Source: Aquisphaera giovannonii (GTDB taxonomy: Bacteria > Planctomycetota > Planctomycetia > Isosphaerales > Isosphaeraceae). Taken from it: DNA of 64,000 nucleotides. The DNA lies in NCBI RefSeq assembly GCF_008087625.1, contig NZ_CP042997.1, positions 7,998,001 through 8,062,000 of the forward strand. The letters are read 5' to 3'. Positions within the stretch are counted from its first letter, which is position 1. Every line of letters starts with the position of its first letter. A program made the position numbers and the translations under genes. The notes under the pieces were generated by a model that made no database searches, was not told where the DNA came from, and saw only the letters and a program-made list of their open reading frames with translations. Of the stretch, positions 32,776 through 50,552 are shown piece by piece.

Positions 32776-35700
32776 TCATCGCCAGTCGATCGCCTGGACC
32801 CAGTCCAGCCCGCGGTCGTAAAGGTCGAGCCGGTCCACCTTCCCGGTCGCGACGCGGGCGAAGACGAGCTCGGGATGCCGGGGCGAGGACGGCGTCCTCT
32901 TCCGCGGCACGATCCAGACCGCCGAGCCTCCGTCGGGGGACCAGCAGGGCTGGCCGTGGGCCCGAAGGTCGGCGTACCCCGGGTAGACTTGATTAAACTC
33001 GAAGAGGTCCCTCGGCGGCCCCTCGGCCAGGTCCCGGACGACGGCGAAATGACGGACCCGGCCGTCTACGTGTCGCCGCTCCTCGTACGCAATGCGGCCG
33101 CCGTCGGGCGAGAACCGGGCGGCGATGCTGTCCAGCGGCGGGCCCGACGTCAGGGGGATCCGGCCGGTGCCGTCGGGGCGGAACAGGTCGATCTGGCGGA
33201 GCGGATAGGTCCCCTTCGTCGGGTGTTCGAAACTCCGGCCCGGGTTGGCCCCCATGACGGCCAGGGACGTGCCCGCGGGGGACCAATCCCAGACCACGTC
33301 GGACGCCGGGAGGGGCAAGGGCGTCTCCCGGCCGCTCGCGACGTCGAGGATGACATTCCGAGACTCGCGGCCCTTTGCGCGGATCACGGCGAGCTGCGTC
33401 CCGTCCGGGGACCAGGCCGCGACCTGGCCGCCGGCCGCGAGCATCCGGCGGTCTCCGGCCGCGGTGAGCAGCCATATTTCCTCGCGAGACGCGTCGCCCC
33501 GGCCCCGGGCCACGTTGTAGGCCAGCCGCGTGCCGTCGGGGGACTCGCGGCCGGAATTGATAGTGGACTCGTCGCCCGGCCTCAGGACCGTTTCGAAGCC
33601 CGTCCCGCCCGGGTCCATCTGCTCGATGGTCGAGCCGCTCGTCCGGCCGTCGCGGATCGTGCCGAAGAGGATGAGCTTCCCCCTGAACGAGGGCGACGGC
33701 TTCCGAGCCGCCGGCGTCGTCGGGTTCGGGGCGAGCGCCCCCGCGACGGCGACGGCGAGGTCCTCCCCGGGCCCGAGGTCGCCCGGGAGCGGCGCCGACC
33801 GCGGCACCTCCGGCGTGCGGCCCATGAGGCCCTCCCAGACGCCGAACAGGCCCCACGCCCGGACGAGCGGGGCTTTCTCATCGCGGATCCATCGGAGCGC
33901 CACGTCGGACTCGCCGGACTCCGCGAGCGCGGAGGCGAGGCTGGCGGTCGCGGCCGTCGCGGTCCCCACCGACCGACGGTCGCCCCGGACGACCGTGATC
34001 TGACGCCGGACGAGCTGGAAGAGGTCATCGGCCTCCCGGGTACGCCGCGCCTGGGCGTGGGCCCGGGCCACGTCCACGAGGGCCCGCAACCGACAGAGCT
34101 CGTCCGGGATCGTGTCGGCGATGCTCCTCGCCCGGGCGAGCTCGCCCTTGCGGGCGACGGCCGCGACGACGGACAGCAGGGCCTCCCCCTTCCAGGACGC
34201 GTCGCCGATCCGGCCGGCCGTCTCCAGCGCCTCGTCCGTCTCGTCCCGGCCGGCCTGGGCGGCGGCGATGTTCTTCCGGGCGATGTCGCCCCAGGGCGCC
34301 CTCGCGATGCCGGACGCGAGCTCCTTCGCGTCCGCGACCGAGCCCGAGGATGCGAGGACGCCGGCGAGCTCGGCCCGGACCGAAGGCCCGCCGTCGCCCG
34401 ATCCATCGACCGGGATCGCCGCGGCGACCTTGCGGGCCTCCTTCAGGATCTCGGCCGCGTCGACGCCATTCCTGTGCAGCTCCGCCGCCGCGATCCGGGT
34501 CAGGGCCACCGCGCGCGAGTAAGCCTCCGGGATGGCCCGGGCCGCGGCGAGGGCCCCCCGGATGTCGGTGCGGTCGGCTTGCTTCTCCGCCGCGATCCGG
34601 AGCGCCTGGGATTTCCACGGCTCGTCGAGCCCGCCGGCGATCCGGTCCGCGATCGCGATCCCTCCATCGCCGGCCAGGGCCTCGGCGATCGCGCCGGCGG
34701 CCTGGTGGCGGTTGTCCCGGCTCCGGATCCGCGCCACGATCGAGACCGCCCGCCGGTGCAGGCCGAGCCGCGCGCAGGCGGCCGCGACGTCGATCCGCCG
34801 ATGGTCGATCTCCGCCTCGTCGGCGGCGGCGACGGCGCGGAGGAGCGTCGCCCTGGCGTCGTCGAGCCGGGCTGCCTTCTCCTGCAAGATCGCCAGCTTG
34901 AGGAGGATCCAGACCCGCTCCTCCGGCTCCTCGATCGCCGGGAGCTGCGCAATCACCTCCTCGGACAGGCCCTTCGACATGTCGGCGGGGAGCGGCATCC
35001 CCGCGTTCGCGGGAGGCGGCCCGGCCGCGTCGCGGGCCGCGGCCGGCCGGACCGGCGGAGTGCCCCGGGATGCCGACGCGGTCCCCAGCACGCCGAGCCC
35101 GGCCGCGAGGACGGCGACCAGGACGAGCCCGCGCCCCGCCATCCCGCCGACGCCCGCCGCGAGGGCGTACGAGGCGGTCGGCGGGCGGAGCGCGGCGAGC
35201 CGGGGCATCGGGATGAGCGTGCTCGCGCCGACCTCTCCCGCCAGCCACGCGGCCAGCCCGCCGGCGGAGATGGCCACGCCCCGCCGCGTCAGGCGGCCGG
35301 CCAGCAACTTGCGGCCCCTGGCCAGCCGGCTGGCGACCGTGCCCTCGGCCCAGCCGAGGCGGCTCGCGGCCTGGGAGCGGGACTGCCCCTCCAGGTCGCA
35401 CAGGACCACCGCCGCGCGGTAGCGGGCCGGGAGGCGGGCGAGCTCTTCATCGAGGAGGCCCGCGAGTTCGCGGCGATCGTCCCACGGCGCGACGGCCGCG
35501 TCGATGGCCACCGCGGCCGATCGCTCGCGGGCGCGTCGCCGAGCGGAGGCGACCCGGAGCTTGAGGGCCGTGCGCGTCGCCACCCCGTGGAGCCAGTGGC
35601 CGACCGAGCCCCGGGGAATGACCGACGCCCCTCGCAGGGCCAGGACGAGGAACGCAGCCTGGAACGCCTCCTCCGCGTCATGCTCGTTCGCCAGGATCCG

Positions 35701-35862
35701 GCGGCAGACGGCCAGGACCATCGGCCCGTGACGCCGGACCAGCTGCTCGAACGCGGATTCGTCCCGGGACTCGACGAACCGGCCCAGGAGCGTGCCGTCG
35801 TCCAGCCCCGCCGAGATCCCGGTCCGGAAAAGCGTCTGGACGTCGCGAGTCATGACATTCAC
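32776..35862 (-). CDS. ECF sigma factor fused to TM segment, TPR-like region and TolB-like propeller
   Basis: A 1028-residue protein with a GTG start (GAGGAG seven bases before it). Residues about 20-190 are an ECF sigma factor: sigma-2 LVRRHGPMVLAVCRRILANEHDAEEAFQ and sigma-4 LPARYRAAVVLCDLEGQSRSQAASRLGWAEGTV. A hydrophobic segment (GRGLVLVAVLAAGLGVLG, about 245-265) would span the membrane. About 300-640 is TPR-like; from about 690 on are TolB/WD40-type blades (ESPDGTRLAYNVARG, WSPDGTQLAVIRA, FSPDGGRIAYEE). This is the ECF01-Gob style of planctomycete sigma factor. It should face outwards with its C-terminal sensor region and bind RNA polymerase inside; release mechanism unknown. Confidence 0.85.
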   Translation of the reverse strand: MNVMTRDVQTLFRTGISAGLDDGTLLGRFVESRDESAFEQLVRRHGPMVLAVCRRILANEHDAEEAFQAAFLVLALRGASVIPRGSVGHWLHGVATRTALKLRVASARRRARERSAAVAIDAAVAPWDDRRELAGLLDEELARLPARYRAAVVLCDLEGQSRSQAASRLGWAEGTVASRLARGRKLLAGRLTRRGVAISAGGLAAWLAGEVGASTLIPMPRLAALRPPTASYALAAGVGGMAGRGLVLVAVLAAGLGVLGTASASRGTPPVRPAAARDAAGPPPANAGMPLPADMSKGLSEEVIAQLPAIEEPEERVWILLKLAILQEKAARLDDARATLLRAVAAADEAEIDHRRIDVAAACARLGLHRRAVSIVARIRSRDNRHQAAGAIAEALAGDGGIAIADRIAGGLDEPWKSQALRIAAEKQADRTDIRGALAAARAIPEAYSRAVALTRIAAAELHRNGVDAAEILKEARKVAAAIPVDGSGDGGPSVRAELAGVLASSGSVADAKELASGIARAPWGDIARKNIAAAQAGRDETDEALETAGRIGDASWKGEALLSVVAAVARKGELARARSIADTIPDELCRLRALVDVARAHAQARRTREADDLFQLVRRQITVVRGDRRSVGTATAATASLASALAESGESDVALRWIRDEKAPLVRAWGLFGVWEGLMGRTPEVPRSAPLPGDLGPGEDLAVAVAGALAPNPTTPAARKPSPSFRGKLILFGTIRDGRTSGSTIEQMDPGGTGFETVLRPGDESTINSGRESPDGTRLAYNVARGRGDASREEIWLLTAAGDRRMLAAGGQVAAWSPDGTQLAVIRAKGRESRNVILDVASGRETPLPLPASDVVWDWSPAGTSLAVMGANPGRSFEHPTKGTYPLRQIDLFRPDGTGRIPLTSGPPLDSIAARFSPDGGRIAYEERRHVDGRVRHFAVVRDLAEGPPRDLFEFNQVYPGYADLRAHGQPCWSPDGGSAVWIVPRKRTPSSPRHPELVFARVATGKVDRLDLYDRGLDWVQAIDWR

Positions 35863-45246: not shown

Positions 45247-47614
45247 GTGACGCATGCCATGTGGAGAGACGCGGCCGACGCGGCGAGGGCCGTGGCACCG
45301 GACGAGGTCGATGGCCGGCTCCTGGCGATCTTCCTCGCCCGCGAGGGGCCGTCCGCGGAGCTGGCGTTCCGGCGTATCGTCGAGCGGCATGCCGATGCCG
45401 TCGTGCGGGCCTGCCGCCGGGTGCTCGGCGATCATCACCGGGCGCAGGACGCGGCGCAGGCCGTCTTCCTGGTCCTCGCCCGGAACGCACGGTCGATCCG
45501 GCGGCCCGATTCGCTCGAGGCGTGGCTGCATGGCGTCGCCCTGCGAGTCGCCCGGAGGGCCCGGGACGGCGAGGCTCGTCGCCGGAGGGCCGAGGATCGG
45601 GCCCGGGCCGAGCGGAGCCGGGGCCGGCCGGCCCCGACCGACGAGGCGTACCAGGAACTGCACGAGGAGCTGGCCTCCCTGCCGGACCGCTACCGCCTGC
45701 CGATCATCCTCTGCTACTTCGAGGGCTACACCCAGGAGGAGGCGGCCCGCGTCCTCGGCTGGCCGTACGGCACGGTCCAGGTCCGCCTCCACCGGGCCCG
45801 CAAGCGACTCCGCGAGGCCATGGCGCGGCGCGACCCGGCCCTCCGCGGCGCAATGATGGCGATCCTCGGTCGGCCCGGGGTGCCCTCGAATCCGCCGAGC
45901 GCCGCCTGGGCGGCCGAGACGGCGAGGGCCGCGGTCCAGCTCGCCGGCACGGGCATCGCCGGGGTCGTCGCGCCGTCCGTGGCGTCGCTGGCCTGCGCGG
46001 AGACGGGGATTGCCGCCGGGGCCCCGTTCCTGCCCGGGCTCGGGATCCTGGCGGCGTGCCTGGCCGCCTGCGGGATCTGGTACGCCGGTCCCACGCCCCC
46101 CGGCCGAGCTCCCGCCGCGGGCATCGACGTCCCGGATCGCGGCGGCCGCCGAGGCCGGTCAGGCCGTCGCCGAGGCTTCCCCTGTCGGCGCGGCGGGCGG
46201 GGCGAGGAGGCCATCGCCGAGCAGAGCGAACGGGGCGATTTCGTCGGCGAAGCCGGGGCCATCCGCACCGATCGCCCGGCCTTCGGTGGCGAACTCGGCG
46301 GCGGACGCCGGGCCACCGGCCCGGGAGCGCCCCGAAGAGCCGGCGGGGCGGCCCAATCTCGTGGACGGCCGCGAGCTCTTCGAGCGGGTCTGGGCCGTGA
46401 ACGACCCGCGGGGCCACGGCGGCGACGGCCTGGGGCCGGTGTTCAACGCGCGGTCGTGCGTCGAGTGCCACGACCGGGGTGGGACCGGCGGGGGCGGGCT
46501 CGCGGGCCGGAACATCGACGTCGCGACCGTCGGCGTGCCGGGCGATGCCGGCGGCGGCTTCTTCTACTCGTTCAGCATGAACTTCGGCGGCGACGGCTTC
46601 CAGTACCGCTTCGGCTACGACCCGACCGCGGCCGGTGCGGCGGCCCGGAGCGCCGGCGACCGGGCCGCGGCCGCGGCCGCGGCCGCGCATCCCGGGTTCC
46701 TCGAATCGCCGAGCGTGGTGCTGCATCGCTTCGGCGTCGACCCCTCGTACCAGGCCTGGCGGGCCACCGTCCCCGGCCCTCACGGCACCCTCAACGTGGC
46801 GATCTCGCAGCGGAACCCGACGCCGCTGTTCGGCGCCGGTCTGATCGAGTCGATCCCCGACGAGGCGATCCTCGCCGCCGCGAGGCGGAGGAACTCGCAA
46901 TCCCGGGGCCGGGTCAGCCGCGTCGAGGGCGGGCGCATCGGCCGGTTCGGCTGGAAGGCCCAGGCCGCGACCCTGGCCGAGTTCGTCCGGTCCGCGGCCT
47001 CCGGCGAGCTGGGCCTGGAGGTCCCCGGCCGCCGCCAGGCCGACGACCCCCGCCTGCCCGGCGGCCTCTCGCCGGGCCTGGACATGGACGAGGCGGACTG
47101 CGAGGCGCTGACGCGGTTCGTCCGCGACCTGCCCCGCCCCGTCGCGTTCGCGCCCGCCGCCGCGAAGGAGGCCATCGACGTCGAGGAGGGGTCGCGGGCC
47201 TTCCGGTCCATCGGCTGCGCGGTCTGCCACCTGCCGAGGCTCGGCGACGTGGACGGCCTCTACAGCGACCTCCTGCTCCACGACATGGGCCCGGACCTCT
47301 CGGACGTCGGCGGCTACGCCGTCTTCGGCGCCGGCCCCCTCGCCGCCCCGGCCGCGGCCGCCCCCGACCCGGCGCGGGCCGACCGTCCTGACACCCGGGC
47401 GCGCGAGTGGCGGACGCCGCCGCTCTGGGGCCTCCGCGACTCCGGGCCTTACCTCCACGACGGCCGAGCGGCCACCGTCTCGCAGGCCATCCTGCTCCAC
47501 GGCGGCCAAGGGTTGCCCTCGGCCGAGCGCTTCGCCCGACTTTCCGCCCGCCGCCGTCGCCAGGTCGAGGCCTTCCTCATGACCCTCTCCGCCCCCGCCC
47601 GCCCCGCCGGTTGA
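45247..47614 (+). pseudogene. ECF sigma factor fused to di-haem oxidoreductase, broken by an apparent frameshift
   Basis: The first part (GTG 45247, ribosome site AGGGAGG) reads as an ECF sigma factor: FRRIVERHADAVVRACRRVLGDHHRAQDAAQ (sigma-2) and LPDRYRLPIILCYFEGYTQEEAARVLGWPYGTV (sigma-4). A hydrophobic segment near FLPGLGILAACLAACGIWYA follows. Then, in the next frame (+1), comes a DUF1111-type di-haem oxidoreductase with CVECH and CAVCH, GDGLGPVFNARSC, IGRFGWKAQAATLAEFVRS and the family end LRDSGPYLHDGRA, to 47614. The frame changes somewhere between about 46090 and 46330. The first frame stays open until 47391 but with an unnatural arginine-rich sequence, so a frameshift in one fused gene is more likely than two genes; a sequencing error is possible, as is a real break. 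Confidence 0.75.
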
Positions 47615-48320
47615 CGGGGACGGGCCGCACCGCCACCGGGCGGAGAGCCTGCCGGAGCAGGCCGCCACGCGCCTTTCTTTGCTGTTTCCAAAGCCCGTCG
47701 CAGGCCGGGATGGCGATGTCCCCGGGCGACGGCGGGACGACGCCCGGGGAGCCGCCGCGTCGCGAGTCGGTCAGGGCCGTATGCCCTCGAGCTCGTGCGA
47801 CCCATGTCCTAAGAGCGGCTGGGGCGCGCACGGGGACCGAACCCCGCGATGTTCGTGTCCGCACGGCGGCGACGCAAGCCGAGGCCGATGAGGTCGCAGT
47901 CCGGAGCCGAATCAGAGTGGGTGTCCCGGTGCTGGTCCTCGCCCTGGCGTGGCCGCCAAGGTCGTTTAACTTGGCCTGAAGGACCCGCGTGGAAATCCGA
48001 GTTCGAATAGGATAGCGGGGGCCTGCCCGCCGCGGACGTCCGCCGGCATGCCTCGGGGCCGACATCGCGGACGCCGGGATCGGACCCCGCGGGTCGGTGG
48101 AGCGGCTGGCGTCGGGGCAGCCGGCTCGCAGAGCCGCCCGGTCACGAAGCCGCGGCGCCGGGACCGGGGCCCCGACCCCGATCCGACGTCGCCACATGGT
48201 CTTACCGCCAGCAGCCCCCGATCGTCTCGTGTGACTTGTCCGAAAGCTGCAACCCGATCGGCCCACCGTTACATTACTAGGGACGGTGAAGAGACGGCAC
48301 GCTGGGCGAGGGTCAGGACG
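47615..48320. other. Intergenic region
   Basis: This 706-base gap contains no convincing gene; open frames in it are short, arginine-rich or opposite to a gene. A less G+C-rich patch, CGTTACATTACTAGGGACGG at 48267-48286, lies just before the sigma-TolC gene and may be part of its promoter. Confidence 0.4.
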
Positions 48321-50552
48321 GTGGCGATCGCGAAGGACCGAACCATTACGCGTCAGCTCGCGGCCCTCTTCGACGCCGGGGCGATCCGCGCGCTGACGGA
48401 CGGGCAACTGCTGGAACGATACAGGCGAGGCGACGGCGAGCCCGCGGAGCTCGCCTTTGCGGCCCTGGTGGAGCGCCACGGCGAGATGGTGCTGCGCGTC
48501 TGCCGAGCCCGGCTGGCGGACCCCCAGGATCGGCAGGACGCCTTCCAGGCGACGTTCCTGGTGCTGATCGAGAGGGCCCGAAGCCTCTGGGTGAGGGATT
48601 CGCTGGGCCCCTGGCTGCACCAGGTCGCGTTGCGGACGGCCTCCCGTGCCCGGGCGTCCGCGATCCGCCGGAGGCGGCTCGAAGGCGAGGCGGCCGAGGT
48701 CGCGGCCAATCGCGAGCCGCACGAGGCGGGTGTCCCGCCGGAGGTCGCGGCCGTCCTCCACGAGGAGATCGGGCGCCTGCCCGGACGTTACCGCGTGCCG
48801 ATCGTGCTCTGCGACCTCGAGGGCCGCACCTGCGAGGAGGCGGCGAGGCTGCTGGGCAGGCCGGTCGGCACGATCAAGTCCTGGCGGTCGCGGGGCCGCG
48901 ACCTCCTGCGACGCCGGCTGATCCGGGCGGGCCTGGCGCCCGCCATCGGGATCGAGGCCGTCATCGCCGCGGATATCGCCCGGGCTTCCGGATCGGATGC
49001 GACGGCCGGGCGGATGGTCCGGGCCGCGATCCGGATGGGATCGGAGGGGTCGGGCGTCGGGATCGTCCCGGCGTCGGTTCGCACGCTTTCCAGAGGAGTC
49101 GCTCGATCGATGTTACGCCAACAAGGGGGGATGATCCTGGCGGGGCTCCTGGTCGCCGCCGGCCTCGGCACCGGGATCGCGGCGGCGATGCAGGCCGGCG
49201 GCGACGGGGCGAGGCGGCCGGCCGATGCCGCGGCGGGGGCGGCCCATCGGCGGCCCGCCGCGCCGCCGCCCCCGGACGTACCGGCCGCCGCCGCGCCTGG
49301 CGGCGAGACCTGGCCGCTGTCCCTCCGCGACGCCATCCGGATCGGGCTGGAGAACAGCGAGGCCGTCCGGGTGATCGAGCCCGATGCGAAGGGCGGGCCC
49401 GCCGAGGGACGCGAGGCGGCGCGACCGGGGGCGGCCGACGGCGTGTCGCCGCTGGTCATCGCCCCCGCGTCGCCGACCGGCGATCTCGAGCGGTTCCGGT
49501 CCGACGTCATGGGCAAGGTCCGCCGGATCGCGTTCGAGTACTGGTTCCTCTCGGCGGCCCACGTCCGCGTCTGGGCGTCCGAGCGGGCCGTCGCCGAGGC
49601 GAAGGAGATCCGCGATCGCGAGCAGGCCGAGCTCGTCGCGGGCAAGGGGGTGGTGGGCGATGTCGCCGAGGCCGCCCAGCGGCTCGAGCAGTTCAGCCTC
49701 GACCTGGTGACCCGGACCTCCGACCTGATGACCCACGAGCGGCAGCTCCGCAAGCTGATGGGGACGCCAGCGGCCGACAACCGCAGGATCGTCCCGACCA
49801 CGCCACCTCGTCACGTCGAGGACCCGCCGGCCCTGAAGCGATGCCTGGCGGACCTGTTCGCGAATCAGCCGGAGGTCCTCCGGGCGAAGCGACTCCTTAC
49901 CGACGGCCAGGGTCATCGGGCCGAGGACCTGGACGGGGCGGCCGAGGCCCTCATCCCGGAGCTCGCCGACGGCGCGGGTGGGCCGGCCGCGTTGCACGAG
50001 GCGCAGGCCCTCCTCGAGCCGTTCGGGGCGGGGAGCCTGGCCCTGCGCCAGGCCATCGACCAGGCCAGGGGCGCGGTGGTCCGCTCGCGCCAGGAGGCCG
50101 AGCAGAAGTCTCGCCAGTTCCAGAACGCGGCCCGGCTGCGAATCGCCGCCGGCCAGCGACTCGACGCCCAGCGGGCCTACCATGAGGAACGCCGGATCAC
50201 GATCGACCGCATCCTCGACGCGGTCAGCCAGTATTACGACTCCGTGGGCAAGGAGGCCGACTACCGGGCGCAGTACGCCATCGCCATGGACTCGCTCGAG
50301 GCGGACGAGGGAACCCTCCTCAAGACGGCCGGGATCGCGACGGCGGAAGCACCACGAAGCGAGCCGGCTCCACTCCATCGCCAGGCGATCGGCGCCGGGC
50401 GAGCCGCCGAAGCCGCCGAACGCCCAAGGGCGGGCGAGGACGCCCCGGGGACGGACACCACCGGCAGGACTTTCTCCTTCCACTTCACGCTCAAGACCGG
50501 CCCCAGACCGATCGAGGTCCATGGATCATTCACCGTCGGGCCGGCCCGCTAG
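48321..50552 (+). CDS. ECF sigma factor fused to a TolC-like domain
   Basis: A 743-residue protein. The GTG at 48321 (VAIAKDRTITRQLAALFDAG) is chosen because family members start here; no ATG is near. The ECF sigma part includes LVERHGEMVLRVCRARLADPQDRQDAFQATFL and LPGRYRVPIVLCDLEGRTCEEAARLLGRPVGTIKSW. A membrane segment GGMILAGLLVAAGLGTGIAAAM lies near residue 275. After a proline-rich linker, WPLSLRDAIRIGLENSEAVRVI, then GDVAEAAQRLEQFSLDLVTR and RQLRKLMGTPAADNRRIVPT match planctomycete TolC homologues (efflux outer-membrane factor domain). It is expected to lie across the inner membrane with the TolC-like part outside. A sigma factor fused to this domain is unusual. Confidence 0.82.
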   Translation: MAIAKDRTITRQLAALFDAGAIRALTDGQLLERYRRGDGEPAELAFAALVERHGEMVLRVCRARLADPQDRQDAFQATFLVLIERARSLWVRDSLGPWLHQVALRTASRARASAIRRRRLEGEAAEVAANREPHEAGVPPEVAAVLHEEIGRLPGRYRVPIVLCDLEGRTCEEAARLLGRPVGTIKSWRSRGRDLLRRRLIRAGLAPAIGIEAVIAADIARASGSDATAGRMVRAAIRMGSEGSGVGIVPASVRTLSRGVARSMLRQQGGMILAGLLVAAGLGTGIAAAMQAGGDGARRPADAAAGAAHRRPAAPPPPDVPAAAAPGGETWPLSLRDAIRIGLENSEAVRVIEPDAKGGPAEGREAARPGAADGVSPLVIAPASPTGDLERFRSDVMGKVRRIAFEYWFLSAAHVRVWASERAVAEAKEIRDREQAELVAGKGVVGDVAEAAQRLEQFSLDLVTRTSDLMTHERQLRKLMGTPAADNRRIVPTTPPRHVEDPPALKRCLADLFANQPEVLRAKRLLTDGQGHRAEDLDGAAEALIPELADGAGGPAALHEAQALLEPFGAGSLALRQAIDQARGAVVRSRQEAEQKSRQFQNAARLRIAAGQRLDAQRAYHEERRITIDRILDAVSQYYDSVGKEADYRAQYAIAMDSLEADEGTLLKTAGIATAEAPRSEPAPLHRQAIGAGRAAEAAERPRAGEDAPGTDTTGRTFSFHFTLKTGPRPIEVHGSFTVGPAR

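Follow-up and report, generated by a model that had tools for sequence, protein, structure and literature searches.

ECF sigma factors that are anchored in the membrane and carry C-terminal extensions have been described, and one of them, IutY, is activated by proteolysis (PMC8999054). In IutY and in the groups ECF48, ECF52 (for example SCO4117) and ECF53, a single chain comprises sigma regions 2 and 4, one helix that spans the membrane and a long extension beyond the cytoplasm, along with fused anti-sigma parts that are of the zinc-finger type in ECF48, ECF52 and ECF53 (PMC8999054). ECF41, which is not membrane-anchored, is regulated through a fused SnoaL-like domain; its promoter is conserved, and the one target that could be detected is an enzyme gene or operon distinct from the sigma gene (PMC3426412). 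Autoregulation has been predicted for approximately 55% of ECFs (PMC8103513). Planctomycetes have large paralogous families of ECFs with long C-terminal modules, among them the WD40 proteins of ECF57 and other groups (PMC8999054, PMC8567305), and planctomycete ECFs have been recovered in detergent fractions (PMC8567305).

The gene described here lies in a window of 64,000 nucleotides from Aquisphaera giovannonii, the whole stretch of DNA that we analysed. Its product resembles IutY and ECF48/52/53 in combining sigma regions 2 and 4, one predicted membrane segment and a long, putatively extracytoplasmic extension in a single chain, but the extension is derived from TolC, and where the planctomycete WD40 ECFs have propellers this protein has TolC hairpins. 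The features of the locus are listed in Table 1.

Table 1. Features of the fusion gene and its upstream region (window coordinates).
Feature	Residues	Position	Strand	Basis or remark
Conserved ECF-type promoter		48248..48277	+	-35 TGCAACC 48248-48254, 17-nt spacer, -10 CATTAC 48272-48277
Whole fusion gene (ECF sigma, membrane segment, barrel-less TolC part)	743 aa	48321..50552	+	GTG start
Sigma-70 region 2	49-113	48465..48659	+	Pfam PF04542, 8.7e-7
Sigma-70 region 4	146-194	48756..48902	+	Pfam PF08281, 2e-11
Single hydrophobic (membrane) segment	271-290	49131..49190	+	Hydropathy
Ala/Pro/Arg-rich linker	291-327	49191..49301	+	Sequence; variable across orthologues
TolC N-terminal signature WPLSLRDAIRIGL	331-343	49311..49349	+	Alignment with full TolCs
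Remnant at site of TolC beta-barrel segment 1	350-386	49368..49478	+	Alignment, landmark distances
TolC coiled-coil hairpin 1	389-480	49485..49760	+	AF2 helices, C-part 73-123/129-164
Remnant at site of TolC beta-barrel segment 2	516-569	49866..50027	+	Landmark distances, conservation
TolC coiled-coil hairpin 2	570-663	50028..50309	+	AF2 helices, C-part 254-306/312-347
C-terminal beta hairpin, conserved	716-739, within FSFHFTLKTGPRPIEVHGSFTV	50466..50537	+	AF2 strands 400-408, 415-423

The initial annotation had described an ECF sigma factor and a TolC-like domain with a membrane segment between them, encoded by an intact frame and not by two broken genes. Both statements were borne out: Pfam, hydropathy and a fold search recovered the three parts, the frame is open and intact over its entire length, and the orthologues have the same domain order and, as judged from the alignment, a common start register. 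Sigma regions 2 and 4 scored above the Pfam cut-off and the other sigma regions were unmatched. In contrast to IutY and ECF48/52/53, no FecR-like or zinc-finger anti-sigma domain was found in the extension when Pfam matches up to E 10 were considered, and no anti-sigma-like gene was seen among the neighbours, which were inspected by eye. A match of the Colicin profile to helices 566-653 (E 0.09) was taken as chance, as is expected with long helices.

The hydrophobic segment, which had been placed near residue 275, can be located to residues 271-290, the best 19-residue hydrophobic window in the whole protein (Kyte-Doolittle mean 2.04). It is preceded by a helix with an L..GV...M motif, and in all seven intact fusions it is found 84-91 residues past the GTxKS motif of region 4. 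A structure model of the full chain (mean pLDDT 47.7, pTM 0.27, three alignment rows) was consulted for the pattern of helices alone. Some 450 residues follow the segment and would lie on the extracytoplasmic side, with the sigma part inside; the charges that flank the segment follow the positive-inside rule only weakly and are uninformative. Alternatively, the segment may act as a cleavable internal signal peptide, so that the C-terminal part (C-part) is freed into the periplasm and the sigma part stays tethered or is degraded. The segment is rich in Gly and Ala, AxA-like sites come after it in some orthologues (RAWA-QDAK in G019), and stand-alone barrel-less relatives of the C-part have signal-peptide-like N-termini (G008, G025, G006 and G030). 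Several orthologues, however, have no clear AxA site, and the helix belongs with the sigma part, a hydrophobic segment at a similar position being present in front of unrelated C-parts. We consider cleavage improbable, and we treat the segment as a single helix that would anchor the protein in the inner membrane.

We found that the full protein matches the OEP/TolC family of Pfam (PF02321) with an E-value of 5.9e-4, that the C-part alone scores 22.3 bits against a cut-off of 22, and that nine out of nine relatives match the same family, the best of them at 1.6e-16. When the C-part was modelled as a monomer (AF2, 22 aligned sequences; mean pLDDT 80.4, pTM 0.75), two long helical hairpins (73-123/129-164 and 254-306/312-347) and a C-terminal beta hairpin were obtained, with pLDDT mostly above 90 in the helices of hairpin 1, and the model contained no strands of a beta-barrel. 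All 44 Foldseek matches of this model at E <= 0.001 were outer-membrane channels of the TolC/OprM/CusC type, and in VIA the channels gave Z 17.6-23.7, with TolC itself at 23.7 and the first unrelated fold at 7.5. The resemblance to TolC that had been proposed therefore stands up in profile and structure searches alike. With TolC and other outer-membrane factors (1ek9, OprM, CusC) the C-part shares the two-fold repeat, both periplasmic hairpins and the equatorial N-terminal signature; it differs from them in that both barrel segments are missing, a predicted inner-membrane helix would serve as N-terminal anchor and an extra beta hairpin is present at the C-terminus.

Alignment with 18 full TolCs places the two deletions of the C-part at the two beta-barrel segments. 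The distance from the start to the YW landmark is 76 residues in this protein and 56-76 in the fusions, as against 213-225 in 17 full TolCs, and that from RRIVP to GTLL is 176 residues here and 133-181 in the fusions, as against 234 in all full TolCs measured. The divergent G018 relative L136, to which the landmarks cannot be applied, was left out of these measurements. By comparison, hairpin 1 (YW to RRIVP) measures 80-83 residues in reduced and full relatives alike, and the landmark distance across hairpin 2 is an identical 76 residues in 32 relatives, full or reduced. Among the fusions, conservation is 0.68 and 0.67 at the hairpin tips and 0.70 in the C-terminal beta hairpin, and it drops to 0.35 (the lowest value) and 0.41 at the sites of former barrel segments 1 and 2, respectively. 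The C-part is thus a TolC-derived domain that lacks the barrel and has retained the hairpins.

It follows from the loss of the barrel and the preserved length of the hairpins that the fusion protein need not reach the outer membrane. The initial annotation had seen a conflict between an inner-membrane anchor and an outer-membrane trimer; since both barrel segments are deleted and only the periplasmic hairpins are left, this puzzle dissolves, and the domain is TolC-like in its hairpins and fold match but not in having a barrel. That an ordinary outer-membrane TolC became joined to a sigma factor by chance and is cleaved off to take its place in the outer membrane would agree with the clear TolC homology, but it is contradicted by the missing barrel, in alignment and model, unless another protein supplies one. 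The genome moreover retains a separate full-length TolC (G000:C1:7841391-7843088), which matches the C-part piecewise at 53, 47 and 55% identity and is nearly identical to the TolC of Aquisphaera insulae (L124). We regard such a chance joining as scarcely credible, and the most fitting reading of the protein is a sigma factor of the inner membrane that presents TolC hairpins in the periplasm.

The fusion, which had been recommended for a search in other Isosphaeraceae, is present in eight genomes of that family including its own, from six genera (eight of 45 family genomes). Four further genera have full-length orthologues that agree with it in domain order and start (G018, G010, G019 and G022; 40-50% identity), and a family-wide search with a four-row alignment as the query added G059, G061 and G063, the last with an interrupted sigma part. 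In this G063 copy (L135) an inserted peptide, GHLLPPGEKGG, breaks sigma region 2; it recurs in another ECF of G063 (L226), and the insert is therefore likely to be a small mobile repeat. A class-wide search of 248 genomes gave no match outside the family at E 1e-60. No conserved gene neighbours were seen around the fusion in the window and at six further loci (L061, L062, L063, L131, L132 and L135). The patchy presence, the interrupted G063 copy and the long branches might suggest a decaying gene that has no function today. Against this, seven frames are intact at approximately 40-50% identity, hairpin lengths are kept exactly and the promoter boxes (see below) are perfectly conserved, and we think decay very unlikely.

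In a tree of 98 ECFs all seven intact fusions group together by their sigma parts, in a single clade with SH-aLRT 98, and the architecture is therefore real and has been inherited. Homologues that encode the TolC-like part separately do exist, in the form of the stand-alone barrel-less relatives, yet the single origin of the sigma parts means that they do not undo the fusion. In a tree of the C-parts, the reduced forms are scattered among full TolCs and a single clade is rejected (AU p 0.0026), a result made unsafe by the long branches of that tree. Taken at face value it would suggest repeated independent fusion, but given the monophyly of the sigma parts we did not adopt this as the principal account; the conflict may reflect the long branches or exchange with the resident TolC.

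ECF sigma factors are often autoregulated and recognise promoters with an AAC-containing -35 box. It can be seen that TGCAACC-N17-CATTAC is present upstream of all eight orthologues, 42-48 nt before the start codon; the two boxes agree at all 13 positions in every one, while spacer and flanks are 33-39% identical. The -35 box contains AAC; the -10 box, CATTAC, differs from the usual CGT. The exact motif occurs once per genome in each of the eight genomes, every time at the fusion gene, and in the window there is one occurrence even when two mismatches are allowed (0.13 expected). With GCAACC-N16 to 18-CATTA, a looser pattern, there was still a single occurrence in six of the eight genomes. Additional copies were sought and dismissed: near-consensus matches are no commoner than those of a reversed-pattern control, with nine further one-mismatch matches in the eight genomes as against 20 for the control. 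Another 55 ECF frames in this genome were examined, and none is preceded by the motif; one has a weaker look-alike. Because the exact motif is found once per genome, at this gene, the near-consensus regulon seems to be the fusion gene itself, in which respect the protein would differ from ECF41; degenerate target promoters may exist in addition. The footprint suggests that the promoter may be recognised by the sigma part that it serves, and that the gene may be autoregulated.

The fusion is one of many extended ECFs in its genome (10.5 Mb, three contigs), which contains at least 141 matches to sigma-70 region 2, many with long C-terminal extensions. In Pfam searches of 48 further ECF frames with long C-parts and the fusion, the modules behind the sigma part included carboxypeptidase-regulatory, Ig-like, WD40, DUF1559 and redoxin domains, and most of these frames have a hydrophobic segment some 50-70 residues past region 4. 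The neighbour at 45247-47614 (+) encodes, in frame 1, an ECF sigma and membrane segment followed by a di-haem oxidoreductase (PF06537, 6e-26); the oxidoreductase lies in another frame, probably owing to a frameshift just past the membrane segment in the window copy, and the same fusion is a single open frame in four relatives (G029, G062, G063 and G014). A third ECF frame with a long C-part was observed in the window at 35554-35742 (-), with an ORF of approximately 1063 residues (G000:C1:8033554; L213). Three other ECF groups have a conserved upstream motif of their own when read by eye, namely TTG(A/C)AATG..ACTA in the di-haem group, GGAACC..GCAT in ECFs of G062 and G036 that bear TolC tips, and GGATTG..CACTAC, which is common to two adjacent tip-bearing genes of A. 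giovannonii.

We propose that the fusion protein is a transmembrane regulator in a single chain, a sigma factor that senses through its hairpins and feeds back positively on its own promoter, a reading in which our confidence and our doubt are about equal. The sigma part would be cytoplasmic and held at the inner membrane by the single helix, and the C-part would show two coiled-coil hairpins of the TolC mouth to the periplasm, without a barrel. Because the length of the hairpins is kept and their tips are conserved, they would most likely bind partners of the TolC mouth, either the adaptor hairpin tips of efflux or secretion machines or helices of the TolC type. Occupancy of the hairpins, or stress, would then alter the availability of the sigma part, and activation would probably consist in its release or exposure on signal, whether through regulated cleavage of the kind known from IutY or because the protein changes its conformation or clusters differently; the free sigma would transcribe its own gene from TGCAACC-N17-CATTAC and thereby close a positive feedback loop. 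A link between envelope contact and transcription had been suggested at the outset, and we grade it the most natural reading of the architecture. We count against our proposal the weak positive-inside signal, the lack of a conserved neighbouring partner gene and the conflict shown by the C-part tree.

A one-gene regulon is also unusual for a sensor, and with its own gene as sole target the C-part may be output and not input. In the strongest rival to our proposal it is the periplasmic TolC-like part that does the work, perhaps by bracing or plugging an export machine or acting as its decoy, and the attached sigma only secures expression of its own gene; the regulon would then be one gene, and the protein would act as a transcription factor for itself. 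The exact promoter, found once per genome and invariably at the fusion gene, would fit this well, as would the upstream motifs of the three other ECF groups and the C-parts of sister ECFs, which are enzyme-like (di-haem oxidoreductase, AhpC/redoxin) and look more like effectors than sensors. Ungated feedback would, however, lock the gene on, so that a switch would still be required, and weak targets with two or more mismatches would be indistinguishable from chance in this analysis. We judge this alternative on balance rather unlikely.

We conclude that the fusion is a real and conserved combination of a barrel-less TolC hairpin module with a membrane sigma factor that has a seemingly private promoter, and not a mislocated TolC. 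Membrane-anchored ECFs with fused extensions being known, what seems new is the TolC-derived, barrel-less extension; a search that covered part of the literature found no description of an ECF-TolC fusion or of a natural barrel-less TolC. If hairpin sensing is correct, a transcription factor would itself bear the surface at which an export channel docks, and could register the state of the envelope machinery directly. With such a promoter, a single reporter gives access to the idea of a one-gene circuit. The same build recurs by the dozen in each genome with different extensions and so provides sigma/promoter pairs as a natural set. More tentatively, and with rather more doubt than confidence, we suggest that the Isosphaeraceae possess a large family of inner-membrane ECFs that are self-transcribing one-gene circuits, in which a private sigma reads essentially its own promoter alone and the periplasmic part is both gate and product. 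The extended build would be a possible answer to the abundance of ECF genes in planctomycetes.

Reduced TolC domains were also seen in other settings. The C-terminal beta hairpin of the fusion ends several of the stand-alone relatives as well. L130 (G059:C988) and L133 (G061:C477) are TolCs from which the first barrel segment alone is missing, the second being of full length (landmark distances of 82 residues at the first and 234 at the second). In L134 (G004) and L141 (G023), which have no sigma factor, a barrel-less TolC domain follows a long N-terminal region of another kind. A minimal form is found behind ECF sigmas, in which two hairpin tips in swapped order are followed by a coiled coil; it occurs in the two adjacent ECF genes of A. 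giovannonii referred to above (G000:C1:7689957-7693283, L074) and in several other genera. The profile of this form matches most full TolCs twice, its first half aligning with hairpin 2 and its second half with hairpin 1, and the ECFs that bear it are spread over several separate sigma lineages in the tree. In L151 and L149 the OEP hairpin is detected directly by Pfam. L149-L158 are ECF sigmas in which the TolC-tip module is followed by an STN-like domain, identified by a weak Pfam match in L149 and L154 and by resemblance alone in the rest, and here one sigma factor would carry the periplasmic parts of two outer-membrane machines. Finally, L159-L162 are small, secreted-looking proteins of approximately 150-180 residues with a weak match to the tip module.
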